The notes below the pieces were generated by a model. The model worked only from the letters and a program-made list of their open reading frames with translations, had not been told where the DNA came from and did not search any database. From assembly GCA_005788205.1 (NCBI GenBank), contig SXYT01000020.1:1-33868 (forward strand): a stretch of DNA of 33,868 nucleotides. The letters run 5' to 3'. Below, in pieces: positions 1 through 8,122 of the stretch. Source of the stretch: Actinomycetota bacterium. Its GTDB lineage: Bacteria; Actinomycetota; Acidimicrobiia; Acidimicrobiales; Ilumatobacteraceae. Within the stretch, counting starts at the first letter, position 1. Each line of letters begins with the position of its first letter. The position numbers were made by a program, and so were the translations under genes.

Positions 1-645
1 CCCGGATGCCGCGAGCTCCTCGGTCGTGGAGTCCACGAGTTTCGCCGCAACGTCGTCGTCCGCGCGGGGGACCGGGCTCCCGGGGATCGGCGCCGTGACA
101 CCCCGGGCCACCGCCGGCGCGTCGTCGCTGTGGGATGACGCGCGCCGCACGAGGACGGAGAGGTCTCCCACCACGTCGGGCACAGTGCACCCGGCACCCG
201 ACAGGACGACATGACCGACGAGGACCGTGCCGACCAGCCAGTCGAGCCCGCTGCCCCGCGGGCCGTCGGTGCCGCCCATCGTCCCGGTCGTGACAATCGA
301 ACGAAGCGCACCGCCCGCGGCCGCGAGGTCGGGCTCGAACCGGGAACAGAGCGCGATCTCCACGAGAGCACGGATGTGGCGCATGACTTGGGGGTCGGTG
401 GCCGCCCATCCGTAGACATCGGCGCCCGGGCCGGGCGCGCGGTCCCCGAGGACCGGCAGCACGCAGGCGTGGAGAGCGTCCCTCATCGCCGCAACCCGGT
501 TGGGATAGCGCGAGTACACGCTCCCGATCGAGGAGTAGGAACGCCGTGCGATCGATTCCATCGTGAGGGCGGAGTGCCCAGCCTGGACGAGTTCGTCCAC
601 CACGGCCTCGCGGATGAAACGGGTGGTGTGGTCCTGCCTCGACAT
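1..645 (-). CDS. TetR/AcrR family transcriptional regulator (C-terminus truncated by window edge)
   Basis: Own translation on the minus strand from ATG at 645: MSRQDHTTRFIREAVVDELVQAGHSALTMESIARRSYSSIGSVYSRYPNRVAAMRDAL..., a TetR-type HTH. It is open to the window edge and so absent from the ORF track. Confidence 0.8.
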   Translation of the reverse strand, partial: MSRQDHTTRFIREAVVDELVQAGHSALTMESIARRSYSSIGSVYSRYPNRVAAMRDALHACVLPVLGDRAPGPGADVYGWAATDPQVMRHIRALVEIALCSRFEPDLAAAGGALRSIVTTGTMGGTDGPRGSGLDWLVGTVLVGHVVLSGAGCTVPDVVGDLSVLVRRASSHSDDAPAVARGVTAPIPGSPVPRADDDVAAKLVDSTTEELAASG

Positions 646-800
646 GTTCCCTCCGGCTCATCATTGCCCAGGCCGTCCTCCCGGGTCGATAACCGAGCCT
701 CAGTATCGGTACACGCTGCGGCCACGGGCCATCGCTGATTCCTATGGTCGGGCAACGGTGGCGGAAACACCGTCCAGCCGTGCCCCGAGGAGGCTTCACC

Positions 801-2699
801 ATGTCCGTGCGCACCCGTCGAATCGCCGTGTTCTGCGCGGCCCTGCTCGCCGTGGGCGCCGGCTCCTCCGGGTGCTCCGGAGGGGGCGACTCCTCCGGAT
901 CGGGCTCGCTGACGTTCCCCGTCCTCTACGTCAAAGGGGAGTCCGGGGGATTCTCCGAGGACACAGTCGAGGTTGCCGAGTCCCCGGACGGCGAGATGCG
1001 GATCGAGTTCAGCGAGGACGAGGTGACCGGGTTCGGGCCGATGCTTCGTGCCGCCATGTGGAACTCGGCCGCGCTCGCGATCCTGCTGACAGGCGAGAGC
1101 CCCGGGAAGGAGTTCAGGTTCCAGGTGTCCGGTCTGGCCGACGGTCCGAGCTCGGGTGCGGTGTCCACCGTGGCTGCCCTTGCCGCGATGAGGGGCGACA
1201 AGTTGCTCGAGAAGACCGCCATGACAGGCACGATCCAGCCGGACGGCTCCGTCGGGCCGGTCGGCGGAATCCCGGAGAAGGTGAAGGGTGCCTCAGAGGG
1301 CAAATACGAACGTGTCGGCATACCCATCGGGATGCGCAACTCGAAATCATCCGCGTCGGGGGAGCAGGTCGACGTGGTCTCGCTCGGCAAGGAACTGGGC
1401 GTGGAGGTGACCGAGCTTGCGAACGTCTACGAGGCCTACGAATTCATGACCGGCAAGACGCTGCCTGCCCTTGCCTCCGGCGGGACTGCGAAACTCGGCG
1501 ACGTGTCGTACGAGCGCCTCAGCGCGAAGACCTCGCTGATGCTCGCGAACTACGAGGAGGCCCGCAGCGAGGCGGCAAGATTGAGCGACTTCACGAAGTC
1601 GCTGCTCGAGAGCCTCGGCACGGAGGCCGTGACCGCGGCCGAGAGGGCCGCAGAACTGAAGGGCCAGGGACAGGTCGCAGGTGCGTTCAACTCCGCCGTC
1701 CTCGCCTGGGGCTACGCACGGGCTATCGGTGCGGCGGGCGAGGTCCTCGACGCGTTCCTCTTCGAGTCGACCGATTCCGCGATCCAATTGATCGAGGACT
1801 CGCGCGTGGTCAACGGCAAGGTCATGGCGCTCCTCGACGTGCTGAAGACTTTTGCCCCGAAGTCCCCGAGCGATGCCTCTGCACTGATGACCGCATTTGC
1901 GAACGCCATCGACGGGCTCAGCCTGGTGAGCTTCGCCGAGGACGAGATCGACGGTGTGATCGCGGACCTGACCGCAGGGAAGATGACCAGGGATGAAGCT
2001 GTCTCGGAGCTCATCCTGCCGCTCGTCTACAACGAGTTCGCCGCCGTGCAGGTGGAGTCCACGAAGGAGCTCTTCGATGCGGGCAGGGACCTCGGCACGA
2101 CCGAGATGCCGGGCCGTGGCGGCATCAAGGCGCTTGCTGCCCTCCTGCGCAAGGGTTCCGACGCGAACCTGGAGGCGTTCAAGACGCAGGTTGTGGACGA
2201 ATTCGCGGCGTCCCTGGACAGGTCGAACGAGACCGTGCTGGCCGCTCTTTCGGACAAGGATCTGGATGTTGCCCTCGCGACGTTCCAGCAGCAGGCCCTT
2301 CTCAGCGTGACGGACTTCCTGGGCAAGAGCCCCGCCGCTGATTACGCAGTGCTCGGGTACGGCATCAACAACTACTCCCGCACCGCGCAGATCCTGCTGA
2401 AGTACGGACCGAACGGTGTGACCGACAACGACTTCAACCTCACCGGGGTCAGGTCAGAGGCGGCACTGACTGCTGCGCTCGACCTGGGCAAGAGCCATCT
2501 CGCCTCGAACATCGGGATGTTGCGGGACAACTCGATCGAACCATCGAACGAGGTCGGGCTCTATGAGTCTGCCTCAATCGACCGCGAAGGTGATGTGCAG
2601 GAGAAGTTCAGTGCCCTCGGCAAGTATTGGTCGGGGTACGTGGGGACCCGAGTGCTCGCGTACCTGGGTGGTCTCGAGAAAGAGGGCCTGGGGGGCTGA
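801..2699 (+). CDS. Secreted lipoprotein with Lon-type (S16) serine protease domain, no ATPase domain
   Basis: Signal peptide plus lipobox-like ...AVGAGSSGCSGGG. DGPSSGAVSTVAALAAMRGD (Ser motif) and TGTIQPDGSVGPVGGIPEKVKGA (Lys motif) match the Lon proteolytic domain. Long helical C-terminal region. ATG at 801 is preceded by an AGGAGG-like RBS. Confidence 0.8.
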   Translation: MSVRTRRIAVFCAALLAVGAGSSGCSGGGDSSGSGSLTFPVLYVKGESGGFSEDTVEVAESPDGEMRIEFSEDEVTGFGPMLRAAMWNSAALAILLTGESPGKEFRFQVSGLADGPSSGAVSTVAALAAMRGDKLLEKTAMTGTIQPDGSVGPVGGIPEKVKGASEGKYERVGIPIGMRNSKSSASGEQVDVVSLGKELGVEVTELANVYEAYEFMTGKTLPALASGGTAKLGDVSYERLSAKTSLMLANYEEARSEAARLSDFTKSLLESLGTEAVTAAERAAELKGQGQVAGAFNSAVLAWGYARAIGAAGEVLDAFLFESTDSAIQLIEDSRVVNGKVMALLDVLKTFAPKSPSDASALMTAFANAIDGLSLVSFAEDEIDGVIADLTAGKMTRDEAVSELILPLVYNEFAAVQVESTKELFDAGRDLGTTEMPGRGGIKALAALLRKGSDANLEAFKTQVVDEFAASLDRSNETVLAALSDKDLDVALATFQQQALLSVTDFLGKSPAADYAVLGYGINNYSRTAQILLKYGPNGVTDNDFNLTGVRSEAALTAALDLGKSHLASNIGMLRDNSIEPSNEVGLYESASIDREGDVQEKFSALGKYWSGYVGTRVLAYLGGLEKEGLGG

Positions 2700-2740: not shown

Positions 2741-3718
2741 TCAGCCGGCGACGGGCGGGCCGTACGGCGGGAGCGTGGTCCGCGGCACGGTGCTGACGGT
2801 CGTCGCGGGCGCCGGCGGTGCGGTCGTCGCCGGTGCCGGTGCGGTGGTCGTCGTGGCCGCACCGGTCTCCGGCACGCCGTAGCCCTCTGTCACCACCGAG
2901 TAGCAGGACATCTTCTTTGACGTCATTCCGTACGAGCACAGTTCGTGGGTCCCGTCGTACGTGGTGTCAGCGCTCCAGCCCGCAGTGAGGGTCACCGACC
3001 CGTTCGCCGCCGCCTTCCCCGTGTCGAGCGTGACGCGGGAGCCGTTGACGAAGTCGTAGAACACGATCTTCTCGCCGGGTGCGAACCCCTTCTTGCCGGG
3101 CATCGGCCCGAACGTGATCTTGGTGGTCTGGCCGGGCGTCACCTTCGGCCTGCTGCCACTTGCCTTCATGCCGGATGTGGTCTTGGCCGACTTCGGGCCC
3201 GAGGTCGGGGCTGCTGGCTGAGTGGTGGCAGTGGAGCCCGTGCCGACCGTGATACCCGTGCATGCCATCCGAAGGCTCCTCTCACCGCGGGCGCACAGCG
3301 TGCGCGGTCCCTCCGTGTCGACCCCGACGAGGGACAGGTACTCGCGCTTGAACGTGATCTGGCCCTTGCCGTCGGCGAATTTCGTGCCGGTGAGCTCCGT
3401 GGCCTTGCCCTTCCAGAACTCGAACAGCCGCACCACTTCACCACTCGCGAATCCGCGCCCGCCCGGGCGTCCTCCGGCCGTCACTGTGACGGTGCCGTCC
3501 ACGCGCACCGTCCGCGGCGTGGCCACGGCCTGCATGCCGGGTGTCGTCGAGGGCGACTTCGGCGGGGGCTCCGTGACCACGACGCACCGCGTGACACCGA
3601 GGAAGTCGGCACAGATCGTCTTGGTCGGGGCCGCCGCGGCACCTGCCGACGACGTCTGGAGCGGGAGTGCCGGAGCAGATGCAAGAACGAACAGGACACA
3701 GATGCGGCGGATACCCAT
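2741..3718 (-). CDS. Secreted protein with two tandem Ig-like (neocarzinostatin-like) repeats and a Thr/Ala/Pro-rich C-terminal tail
   Basis: Starts MGIRRICVLFVLASAPALPLQTSSAGAA (signal peptide). Two related modules: GGRGFASGEVVRLFEF...LCARGERSLRMACTGITVG and KKGFAPGEKIVFYDF...LCSYGMTSKKMSCYSVVTEG. Tail is TTTTAPAPATTAPPAPATT. Confidence 0.7.
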   Translation of the reverse strand: MGIRRICVLFVLASAPALPLQTSSAGAAAAPTKTICADFLGVTRCVVVTEPPPKSPSTTPGMQAVATPRTVRVDGTVTVTAGGRPGGRGFASGEVVRLFEFWKGKATELTGTKFADGKGQITFKREYLSLVGVDTEGPRTLCARGERSLRMACTGITVGTGSTATTQPAAPTSGPKSAKTTSGMKASGSRPKVTPGQTTKITFGPMPGKKGFAPGEKIVFYDFVNGSRVTLDTGKAAANGSVTLTAGWSADTTYDGTHELCSYGMTSKKMSCYSVVTEGYGVPETGAATTTTAPAPATTAPPAPATTVSTVPRTTLPPYGPPVAG

Positions 3719-3826
3719 GGCGGGAAGGTATCCCTGCATGCGTGCGTCGTGCCTCCCGCCGCGGATGATGTGAGGCTCCGTTACCGAACCGGCGGCCACG
3801 GCCGGACCGCGAGGTACGCTCGGGAC

Positions 3827-4333
3827 GTGCGCAGGATTCTGGCGATGTTCGCGATGGCCGCCGCTCTCGCGGCGTGTGCTGCTGACGGTGCCACGGCTCC
3901 GGCCGGAACCGCGGGAGCGGACACGGTCCCGGCAGGCAGTGCCACGTACGGCCTTGTCGGGGGGTCAACTGTGGACCTGTCGGCACTCCAGGCGGAGCGG
4001 CCGGTGGCGCTCTGGTTCTGGGCGCCCGGTTGAACGACATGCAATCTCGAAGCCCCCTCGGTCGAGGCGGTGCACCGCAAGATGAAGGACAGGGTGGAGG
4101 TCATCGGTGTCGCATGGGCGGGCACCGAGTCCGACTACGCCGGCTTCATCGAGCGGCACGGAATCACGTTCCCGACCATCTCGGACACCGACGGCGAGGT
4201 GTACGCCCAATTCGGGGTGCCGTACCAACCGGCCTGGGTGTACCTGGACACTGACGGCACCTCCCGGGTCCGGCGCGGATCCCTGAACGAGGAGACCGCA
4301 TTGGCCGAGCTCGAGGCTCTCGCCGCGGGCTGA
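3827..4333 (+). CDS. Probable selenocysteine-containing thioredoxin-like lipoprotein (MPT53/DsbF-like, redox motif UxxC); TGA at 4031-4033 read as Sec
   Basis: Same frame on both sides of TGA 4031-4033: MRRILAMFAMAAALAACAADG...LQAERPVALWFWAPG-U-TTCNLEAPSVEAVHRKMKDRVEVIGVAWAGTESDYAGFIERHGITFPTISDTDGEVYAQFGVPYQPAWVYLDTDGTSRVRRGSLNEETALAELEALAAG. The TGA sits at the first Cys of the WxPxCxxC motif. Lipobox LAAC. The ORF track shows it as two separate ORFs (2945..4033 tail and 4070..4333). Confidence 0.85.
4052..4071 (+). promoter_or_regulatory. Putative bacterial SECIS element
   Basis: GCCCCCUCGGUCGAGGCGGU folds as CCUC[GGUC]GAGG, then a C-C mismatch, then a 3-bp lower stem including one G-U. 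The apical GGUC loop starts 26 nt after the UGA. It resembles the GGUC-containing loop of E. coli fdhF SECIS. Confidence 0.6.
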
Positions 4334-6666: not shown

Positions 6667-8067
6667 TCAGGCGTGGGTGCCGTGCAGCAGCATGTCCGCC
6701 CCGACGGCGACGAGCCGGTCGACTTCCCCGGGGGCAATCCCCGCGGTGACGGTCTCGTACCGTCGGTCAGCACCGTCTTCGGCGAAGTGGCTCGCCAGTG
6801 GCAGGTAGCGCAGGTGCGTGTTGGCGAGCCCGACGGTGAACGCATCGGGATGCCCGACGAGTTCTGACCAGAGCCGGCCGACACCGACGAGCACCTCGCC
6901 CGGCAGGAAGAGGAAACGCGCCCGGTCGATGACCATCACCTGCAGAGGTGCGCGCACGGGTGCCGGGCTGGTCCCGCGTGCCACCCGTGCGGTGAGCCCG
7001 AGGTAGTAGCAGCAGGCGATCATCACGTCCCGCATCTCGTCGTCGTCCATGTCGGCATCGATCACCGCAGCGGACGACGCAGCCCACAGACGGGCCATCG
7101 GCACCCTCTCGGCAAAGTCATCGCCGAGATGGGCACGAAGGACCCCGGCGCTCTCCTCGAGTCGCTTCCTGGCGGAGGCGTCATCGAGCCCGGCGTTGTT
7201 CGGCGCGACCTCGGCATCGGCCGAGAGGATCCGGAGAATCCCGGTCTCCTCCGCGGGGGAGTGTGCCGACTCGCGCGCGACACGCACCACTTCATCGGCG
7301 AGCATCCTGCCGATCAGGTCCGCGCGCGAGGGATCGGTCCCGGTGTAGCCGCGGGGGTCCAGTGCGTCACGGCGGGCGGACGTGAGGGGGACCACATCAC
7401 CCTCGGTCGTGTTGACGAACATCGCGACCGCACCGGGAAACGCCTCCTCGACGCACCGCTTCGCAACGCCGGGGTAGTCGGCGGAGACCAGCATGTTGTC
7501 CCAGCCGAAGGTGGTGGGGTGACAGCCCGCACCGAACAGCACGGCAAGGACTTCTCCGTTCGAGCCGTCGACGACGGTGACGACGGGAACACGGGTGTCC
7601 ACCAGTGAGTCCTCCCCCGGACGCCAACGGTTGAAGCCGATACGCACGTCACCCGTGCTGCTCGACAGCACCGAATCCCGTGCTGTCGAGCGCGCGTCCT
7701 CCACTGCCGCGACCACTCCTGCCACGAGGAGCTCGGTGAAGCGCGTCGTGGCCTCGCTGGTCCCCGTCGGATCATGCGGGATCGGTGCCGAGTGGGAGTG
7801 CGTGGCGGTGACCACCAGTCGCTCGGCGTCGAACCATTCGTGGGCGCCCAGCCTGTCGACGACTGCCGACTTCAGCTGGCCGGGAATCGCAATGAGGTCG
7901 CACGTCACGACAACGGCCGGGGAGTCGTCACCAAGACAGAGTGCCGTCACCCGCACTGGGTCATGGACTCCCTCGGAGGCGGTGGTGCGCTGGCCGAATC
8001 CCCCCATGGGAACCGGGAAGTCCGGGGTGACATCCCTGCATGCAGCTCCGGCACGAATGCGGATCAT
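6667..8067 (-). CDS. Neutral/alkaline non-lysosomal ceramidase-like hydrolase
   Basis: MIRIRAGAACRDVTPDFPVPMGGFGQRTT...DLIAIPG...VTATHSHSAP...GAGCHPTTFGWDNMLVSADYPG resembles the ceramidase N-terminal domain family. ATG chosen at 8067; the longer ORF begins at 8118. Confidence 0.75.
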   Translation of the reverse strand: MIRIRAGAACRDVTPDFPVPMGGFGQRTTASEGVHDPVRVTALCLGDDSPAVVVTCDLIAIPGQLKSAVVDRLGAHEWFDAERLVVTATHSHSAPIPHDPTGTSEATTRFTELLVAGVVAAVEDARSTARDSVLSSSTGDVRIGFNRWRPGEDSLVDTRVPVVTVVDGSNGEVLAVLFGAGCHPTTFGWDNMLVSADYPGVAKRCVEEAFPGAVAMFVNTTEGDVVPLTSARRDALDPRGYTGTDPSRADLIGRMLADEVVRVARESAHSPAEETGILRILSADAEVAPNNAGLDDASARKRLEESAGVLRAHLGDDFAERVPMARLWAASSAAVIDADMDDDEMRDVMIACCYYLGLTARVARGTSPAPVRAPLQVMVIDRARFLFLPGEVLVGVGRLWSELVGHPDAFTVGLANTHLRYLPLASHFAEDGADRRYETVTAGIAPGEVDRLVAVGADMLLHGTHA

Positions 8068-8122
8068 TGTGTCCCTCCCGCCACGGTGCCCGATCAGCAG
8101 CCGTTCATCTCGGGTCATGATG

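Follow-up and report, generated by a model that had tools for sequence, protein, structure and literature searches.

A lipoprotein-type Lon-like (S16) protease gene with a conserved helical C-terminal domain in a member of the Ilumatobacteraceae

The window analysed here is a stretch of 33,868 nucleotides (contig SXYT01000020.1, positions 1 to 33,868) from an Actinomycetota bacterium of the family Ilumatobacteraceae (assembly GCA_005788205.1). Near its start lies a gene for a Lon-like protease, in which a lipoprotein-type signal sequence is followed by an S16 (Lon proteolytic) domain and a long C-terminal domain. The gene has the following features.

787..793, + strand: Shine-Dalgarno-like GAGGAGG, with a 7-nucleotide spacer to the ATG at 801 (sequence)
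801..2699, + strand: lipoprotein-type Lon-like (S16) protease gene, 632 amino acids (aa) (stop-free translation, Pfam, PDB profile, Foldseek, dN/dS)
801..875, + strand: N-terminal signal sequence and lipobox GSSGC, with predicted lipidated Cys25 (codon 873-875) (sequence)
906..1466, + strand: S16 domain, residues about 36-222 (Pfam PF05362, model, Foldseek)
1149..1151, + strand: codon of catalytic Ser117 (DGPS)
1224..1226, + strand: codon of conserved Thr142 (TGT motif)
1278..1280, + strand: codon of catalytic Lys160 (GGIPEK)
1467..2696, + strand: conserved C-terminal domain, all-helical in the models, residues 223-632 (hhalign, models)

The S16 assignment is firm and not a chance match, because a Pfam match over its cut-off, a profile match to Lon structures in the PDB and a predicted-structure match all support it. 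Pfam Lon_C (PF05362) matched with 33.5 bits against a curated cut-off of 21.1 (E 4e-8) and was the sole Pfam domain found. Solved Lon proteolytic domains were reached by both phmmer and profile searches, and the profile matched PDB Lon with E 2e-12. NCBIfam gave only sub-threshold Lon and SepM matches over the same S16 part (SepM reached 26.9 bits, the cut-off being 200). The predicted model, built from a 7-sequence alignment, has a predicted local distance difference test score (pLDDT) mostly of 80-92 over residues 120-220, and its first ~200 residues matched 3wu6_A in Foldseek (E 1.1e-7, template modelling score 0.76 by target length). A preliminary description of this DNA had proposed an exported lipoprotein-type S16 protease and named structure prediction as a check; the S16 fold was obtained, on the predicted model alone, and the signal sequence and lipobox are present. 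The protein was also described as having neither an ATPase nor a PDZ domain, which agrees with our searches, as no Pfam match to AAA+ or PDZ domains was found in it at E values up to 10.

The catalytic dyad is intact at the codons that the preliminary description had given for it. Two findings would have spoken against that description, namely a predicted structure other than an S16 fold and orthologues lacking the Ser and Lys, and both checks favoured it. Across 21 aligned bacterial members of the family, Ser117 is present in 20 and Lys160 in all 21, and Thr142, Asp148, Gly152 and Pro175 are invariant. Thr142 is presumably the counterpart of the Thr adjacent to the active site of LonA. Ser117 and Lys160 are separated by 43 residues, a distance shared by each of the 20 bacterial members whose Ser motif is intact. 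The same spacing was read by pattern in 21 archaeal members, which have GGPS at the Ser motif, and Ser679 and Lys722 of Escherichia coli Lon are spaced in this way too. One genome (G494) encodes two copies of the family; the copy at L110 is intact, and the second (L111, positions 466-2403, minus strand) has lost the Ser motif (TLDSKAG) and is a candidate natural pseudoprotease.

The gene is single-copy in its own genome and has an orthologue in G019, a genome of the same genus, with 67% identity between the encoded proteins. The nonsynonymous and synonymous substitution rates between the two are 0.27 (dN) and 0.98 (dS), giving a dN/dS of about 0.27, and both the S16 part and the C-terminal part are under purifying selection.

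No recognised domain was found in Pfam or NCBIfam in the C-terminal ~400 aa, as had been noted from the sequence. However, this part is conserved in relatives and is therefore not an orphan domain. In hhalign comparisons of C-terminal profiles, the window protein and its G019 orthologue matched the Myxococcota members at 98.7% (E 1.8e-16, 385 columns), and the Myxococcota members matched the archaeal members at 94% (E 1.5e-7, 328 columns). A pooled bacterial profile matched the archaeal profile at 95.2% over 325 columns. The reversed-profile controls stayed near 0.1% (0.1-0.2% with the reversed archaeal profile). The profile of the window pair alone did not match the archaeal profile significantly, nor did that of L050/L051, and the C-termini of the Verrucomicrobiota members L112-L115 matched those of the Myxococcota over 68 columns only (41.6%). 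Judged by these profiles, the C-terminal domain is homologous along a chain from the window protein through the Myxococcota to the archaea, and it appears diverged or replaced in the L112-L115 and L050/L051 groups. It is all-helical in predicted models of modest confidence. A separate model of this domain (pLDDT 63.5) had no PDB match below E 0.06; the alignment was only 3 sequences deep, so that this result would not indicate a new fold. Internal repeats were sought in the window C-terminus and none was convincing; a short stretch is weakly recurrent in archaeal members.

Export signals and anchors were assigned by pattern and hydropathy rather than with SignalP. N-terminal export signals occur throughout the family of proteins that join an S16 domain to a helical C-terminus, and the window protein has one as well. 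A lipobox Cys is present in 16 of the 21 bacterial members (by pattern and eye), and all four Verrucomicrobiota members L112-L115 have a Sec-type signal sequence, read in the same way. The protein of L002 is truncated at the start of its contig, and a transmembrane stretch is visible in it. Most archaeal members have a strongly hydrophobic C-terminal segment, which is found in none of the bacterial members. The window protein is thus predicted to be exported and lipidated at Cys25. The readings place bacterial and archaeal members alike at the outer membrane face, with different predicted anchors, a lipid in the former and a C-terminal transmembrane helix in the latter.

The relatives are widely scattered. 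Within the genus, the Lon-like gene was found in one of the 31 other genomes (G019), and among 248 surveyed genomes of the order two more have it (G261 and G281), both of another taxonomic family. Full-length relatives are also present in 11 of 237 genomes of the Myxococcota, the phylum of the L002 genome, and in 5 of 241 genomes of the Verrucomicrobiota, that of the L003 genome. In the Thermoproteota, 72 of 200 genomes have an S16 match; many of these proteins are 570-725 aa long with a signal sequence, and the remaining ones are short (~300-360 aa). The preliminary description had presented the protein as an isolated case, and this view does not hold, since the family spans several bacterial phyla and has a sister group in the Thermoproteota. 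It is a little-studied family of scattered bacteria and many archaea, and the window gene is genuine and, though somewhat unusual, has counterparts elsewhere.

In a tree of 100 S16 domains, the bacterial family forms one clade (support 96/93). It groups together with the archaeal members, at a distance from LonA and from the order's PDZ-Lon proteins (94/91). The host has a PDZ-Lon gene of its own (L100), which is cut by a contig end and has a PDZ match. Short exported S16 proteins of about 260-370 aa from Nitrososphaeria and Nitrospirota (L006-L019, L004/L005 and L083) are without the helical domain and are closer to the window family than to LonA or YlbL. A gene at L003 (5743-7824, plus strand), binned as Chthoniobacteraceae, clusters with the Myxococcota members and not with the other Verrucomicrobiota members, which suggests gene transfer or misbinning.

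The archaeal relatives probably correspond to COG1750, an uncharacterised group named 'predicted archaeal serine protease'. The gene tg2111 of Thermococcus gammatolerans, annotated as 'putative extracellular archaeal serine protease' (PMC2718504), may belong to this family. Among open-access papers, none was found that deals with COG1750 or with Lon-like proteases of the lipoprotein type.

Three other features of the window were noted.

2741-3799, - strand: exported-looking Pro/Thr-rich protein, 352 aa, no Pfam match, convergent with the Lon-like gene
3827-4333, + strand: MPT53-like thioredoxin with WFWAPGU-xxC, UGA at 4031-4033
6667-8118, - strand: neutral/alkaline ceramidase-type hydrolase, adjoining glucosamine-6-phosphate isomerase-like, ROK and DegT genes

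Within the genus, the Lon-like gene and the convergent 352-aa gene are found in the window and G019 only. The UGA codon of the thioredoxin gene is retained in G019 and in a 43%-identical copy in G016 (L181), and this conservation favours a real selenoprotein. Among 134 neighbouring open reading frames (ORFs) at 20 loci, no recurrent family was seen among the best 25 of 79 families per set, except ThiN/ThiD. In the archaeal neighbourhoods L158-L165, three ORFs match ThiN/phosphomethylpyrimidine kinase, the sole recurrent and plausibly linked neighbour family seen in archaea. Further along the contig, an acyl-CoA dehydrogenase is closely matched in almost every genome of the genus, most closely in G019 (94%), and the contig therefore fits the genus; its best matches among plasmid records are from Actinomycetota, in keeping with an actinobacterial host. 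The Lon-like protein itself had no match in the plasmid and phage records searched, and thus there is no sign that sequenced plasmids or phages carry the gene.

We propose that the window protein is a Sec-exported, lipid-anchored and ATP-independent S16 peptidase for the degradation of envelope proteins, and we give this proposal a probability of about 0.66. The protein would be exported by Sec and held by its lipid so as to face outward from the cytoplasmic membrane, where the S16 domain would cleave peptide bonds via the Ser117-Lys160 dyad. ATP would not be needed, because the chain lacks the AAA+ unfoldase and no ATP is available outside the membrane. In the place of the AAA+ module, the ~400-aa helical domain may bind and select substrates, hold an S16 oligomer together, or both. 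Unfolded or exposed proteins of the envelope may be degraded or trimmed in this way; LonC, for comparison, degrades unfolded proteins without ATP (PMC3391209). The window protein would represent the bacterial branch, and the archaeal members would face the same way, held by a C-terminal transmembrane helix where the bacterial protein has a lipid. As a possible and more tentative extension, the bacterial and archaeal proteins may form one family of exported, ATP-free, Lon-type proteases whose new helical domain stands in for the AAA+ ring outside the membrane. This would be an undescribed extracytoplasmic compartmental protease, with a lipid as its anchor in bacteria and a transmembrane helix in archaea.

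Several observations weigh against the proposed envelope peptidase. The patchy spread within the genus (2 of 32 genomes) shows that the gene is dispensable, and no conserved neighbour at the 20 loci points to a substrate. The residue at position -3 of the lipobox is Ser, which is not the commonest residue there. The model of the C-terminal domain is weak and yields no fold, so that the role given to this domain is a guess. YlbL is an extracytoplasmic Lon-domain protein that acts on YneA from the membrane and was inactive in vitro (PMC6051672); therefore, an intact dyad is no assurance of activity.

The patchy distribution is also compatible with a specialised role, in which the protein would be a regulatory or processing protease with one or a few membrane partners, recognised by the helical domain, and not an enzyme of general quality control. 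The nearest characterised extracytoplasmic S16 proteins do act on specific partners, as YlbL does on YneA (PMC6051672), and the S16 part has a weak match to the model of the pheromone-processing protease SepM. However, neither a conserved neighbour nor a co-occurring substrate gene was seen at the 20 loci, and the widespread archaeal sister group fits a broader role; we regard a specific protease as unlikely, though worth keeping in mind. The loss of the Ser motif in the L111 paralogue indicates that catalytic loss was tolerated once. On this basis the S16 part could be mainly a structural or binding fold, with the helical domain doing the work, but such a pseudoprotease is improbable given the dyad and the 43-residue spacing kept across phyla and archaea, and both catalytic residues are present in the window protein.

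The preliminary description had likened the protein to YlbL, and the resemblance stands in principle, as both it and YlbL/SepM are Lon-domain proteins that are exported and lack an ATPase. An ordinary PDZ-Lon protein whose PDZ domain is too divergent to be seen is nevertheless extremely improbable. The order of the parts differs, because the S16 domain directly follows the signal and precedes the helical part, with no room for a PDZ domain between them. Moreover, the tree separation and the host's own PDZ-Lon gene indicate that the window protein is not YlbL. A joint role in thiol quality control of the envelope, suggested for the protein and the nearby selenocysteine thioredoxin, found little in its favour beyond the like gene order in the window and G019. 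The convergent gene lies between the two genes, no such thioredoxin was found near 20 other family loci, and G016 has the selenocysteine thioredoxin at this locus without the Lon-like gene. We consider such a link very improbable.

DegP/HtrA, Ctp and enzymes like them are usually credited with proteolysis without ATP in the envelope. If the proposed envelope peptidase is correct, it would illustrate the adaptation of a protease driven by a motor to a compartment that has no ATP, with a domain of unassigned fold replacing the motor. It would also provide a candidate envelope protease for archaea, from a family whose conservation spans bacteria and archaea.

The window protein belongs to a known kind, the exported Lon-type proteases that lack an ATPase. 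A lipoprotein anchor joined, in bacteria, to an S16 domain and this conserved helical C-terminus makes up a variant, and the open-access literature yielded no description of it. The predicted fold and the dyad are shared with the proteolytic domain of LonA (E. coli Lon; 3wu6, 1rr9), whereas LonA works in the cytoplasm with an AAA+ motor and the window protein is predicted to be exported and has no such motor. More generally, LonA, LonB and LonC each carry an AAA+ or AAA-like module on the protease chain itself, and the window protein gave no match to one at E values up to 10. With LonC (MtaLonC), it would have in common the principle alone of an S16 protease working without ATP (PMC3391209), and LonC is not exported as far as known. 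YlbL and SepM have an extracytoplasmic Lon-type domain with the Ser-Lys motifs and without an ATPase. However, they carry a PDZ domain before a C-terminal S16 domain, are anchored by a transmembrane segment, lack the helical C-terminal domain and form a separate clade. The short exported proteins, found in Nitrososphaeria (~350 aa) and in Nitrospirota (L004, L083), share the export signal and the S16 domain and lack the helical domain. The secreted Lon-like proteins of the Thermoproteota have the signal sequence, the S16 domain with GGPS, the Lys at 43 residues, and a long helical C-terminus homologous to those of the Myxococcota. They differ in their anchor, a hydrophobic C-terminal segment where the window protein has a lipobox, and their C-terminal link to the window protein runs via the Myxococcota.
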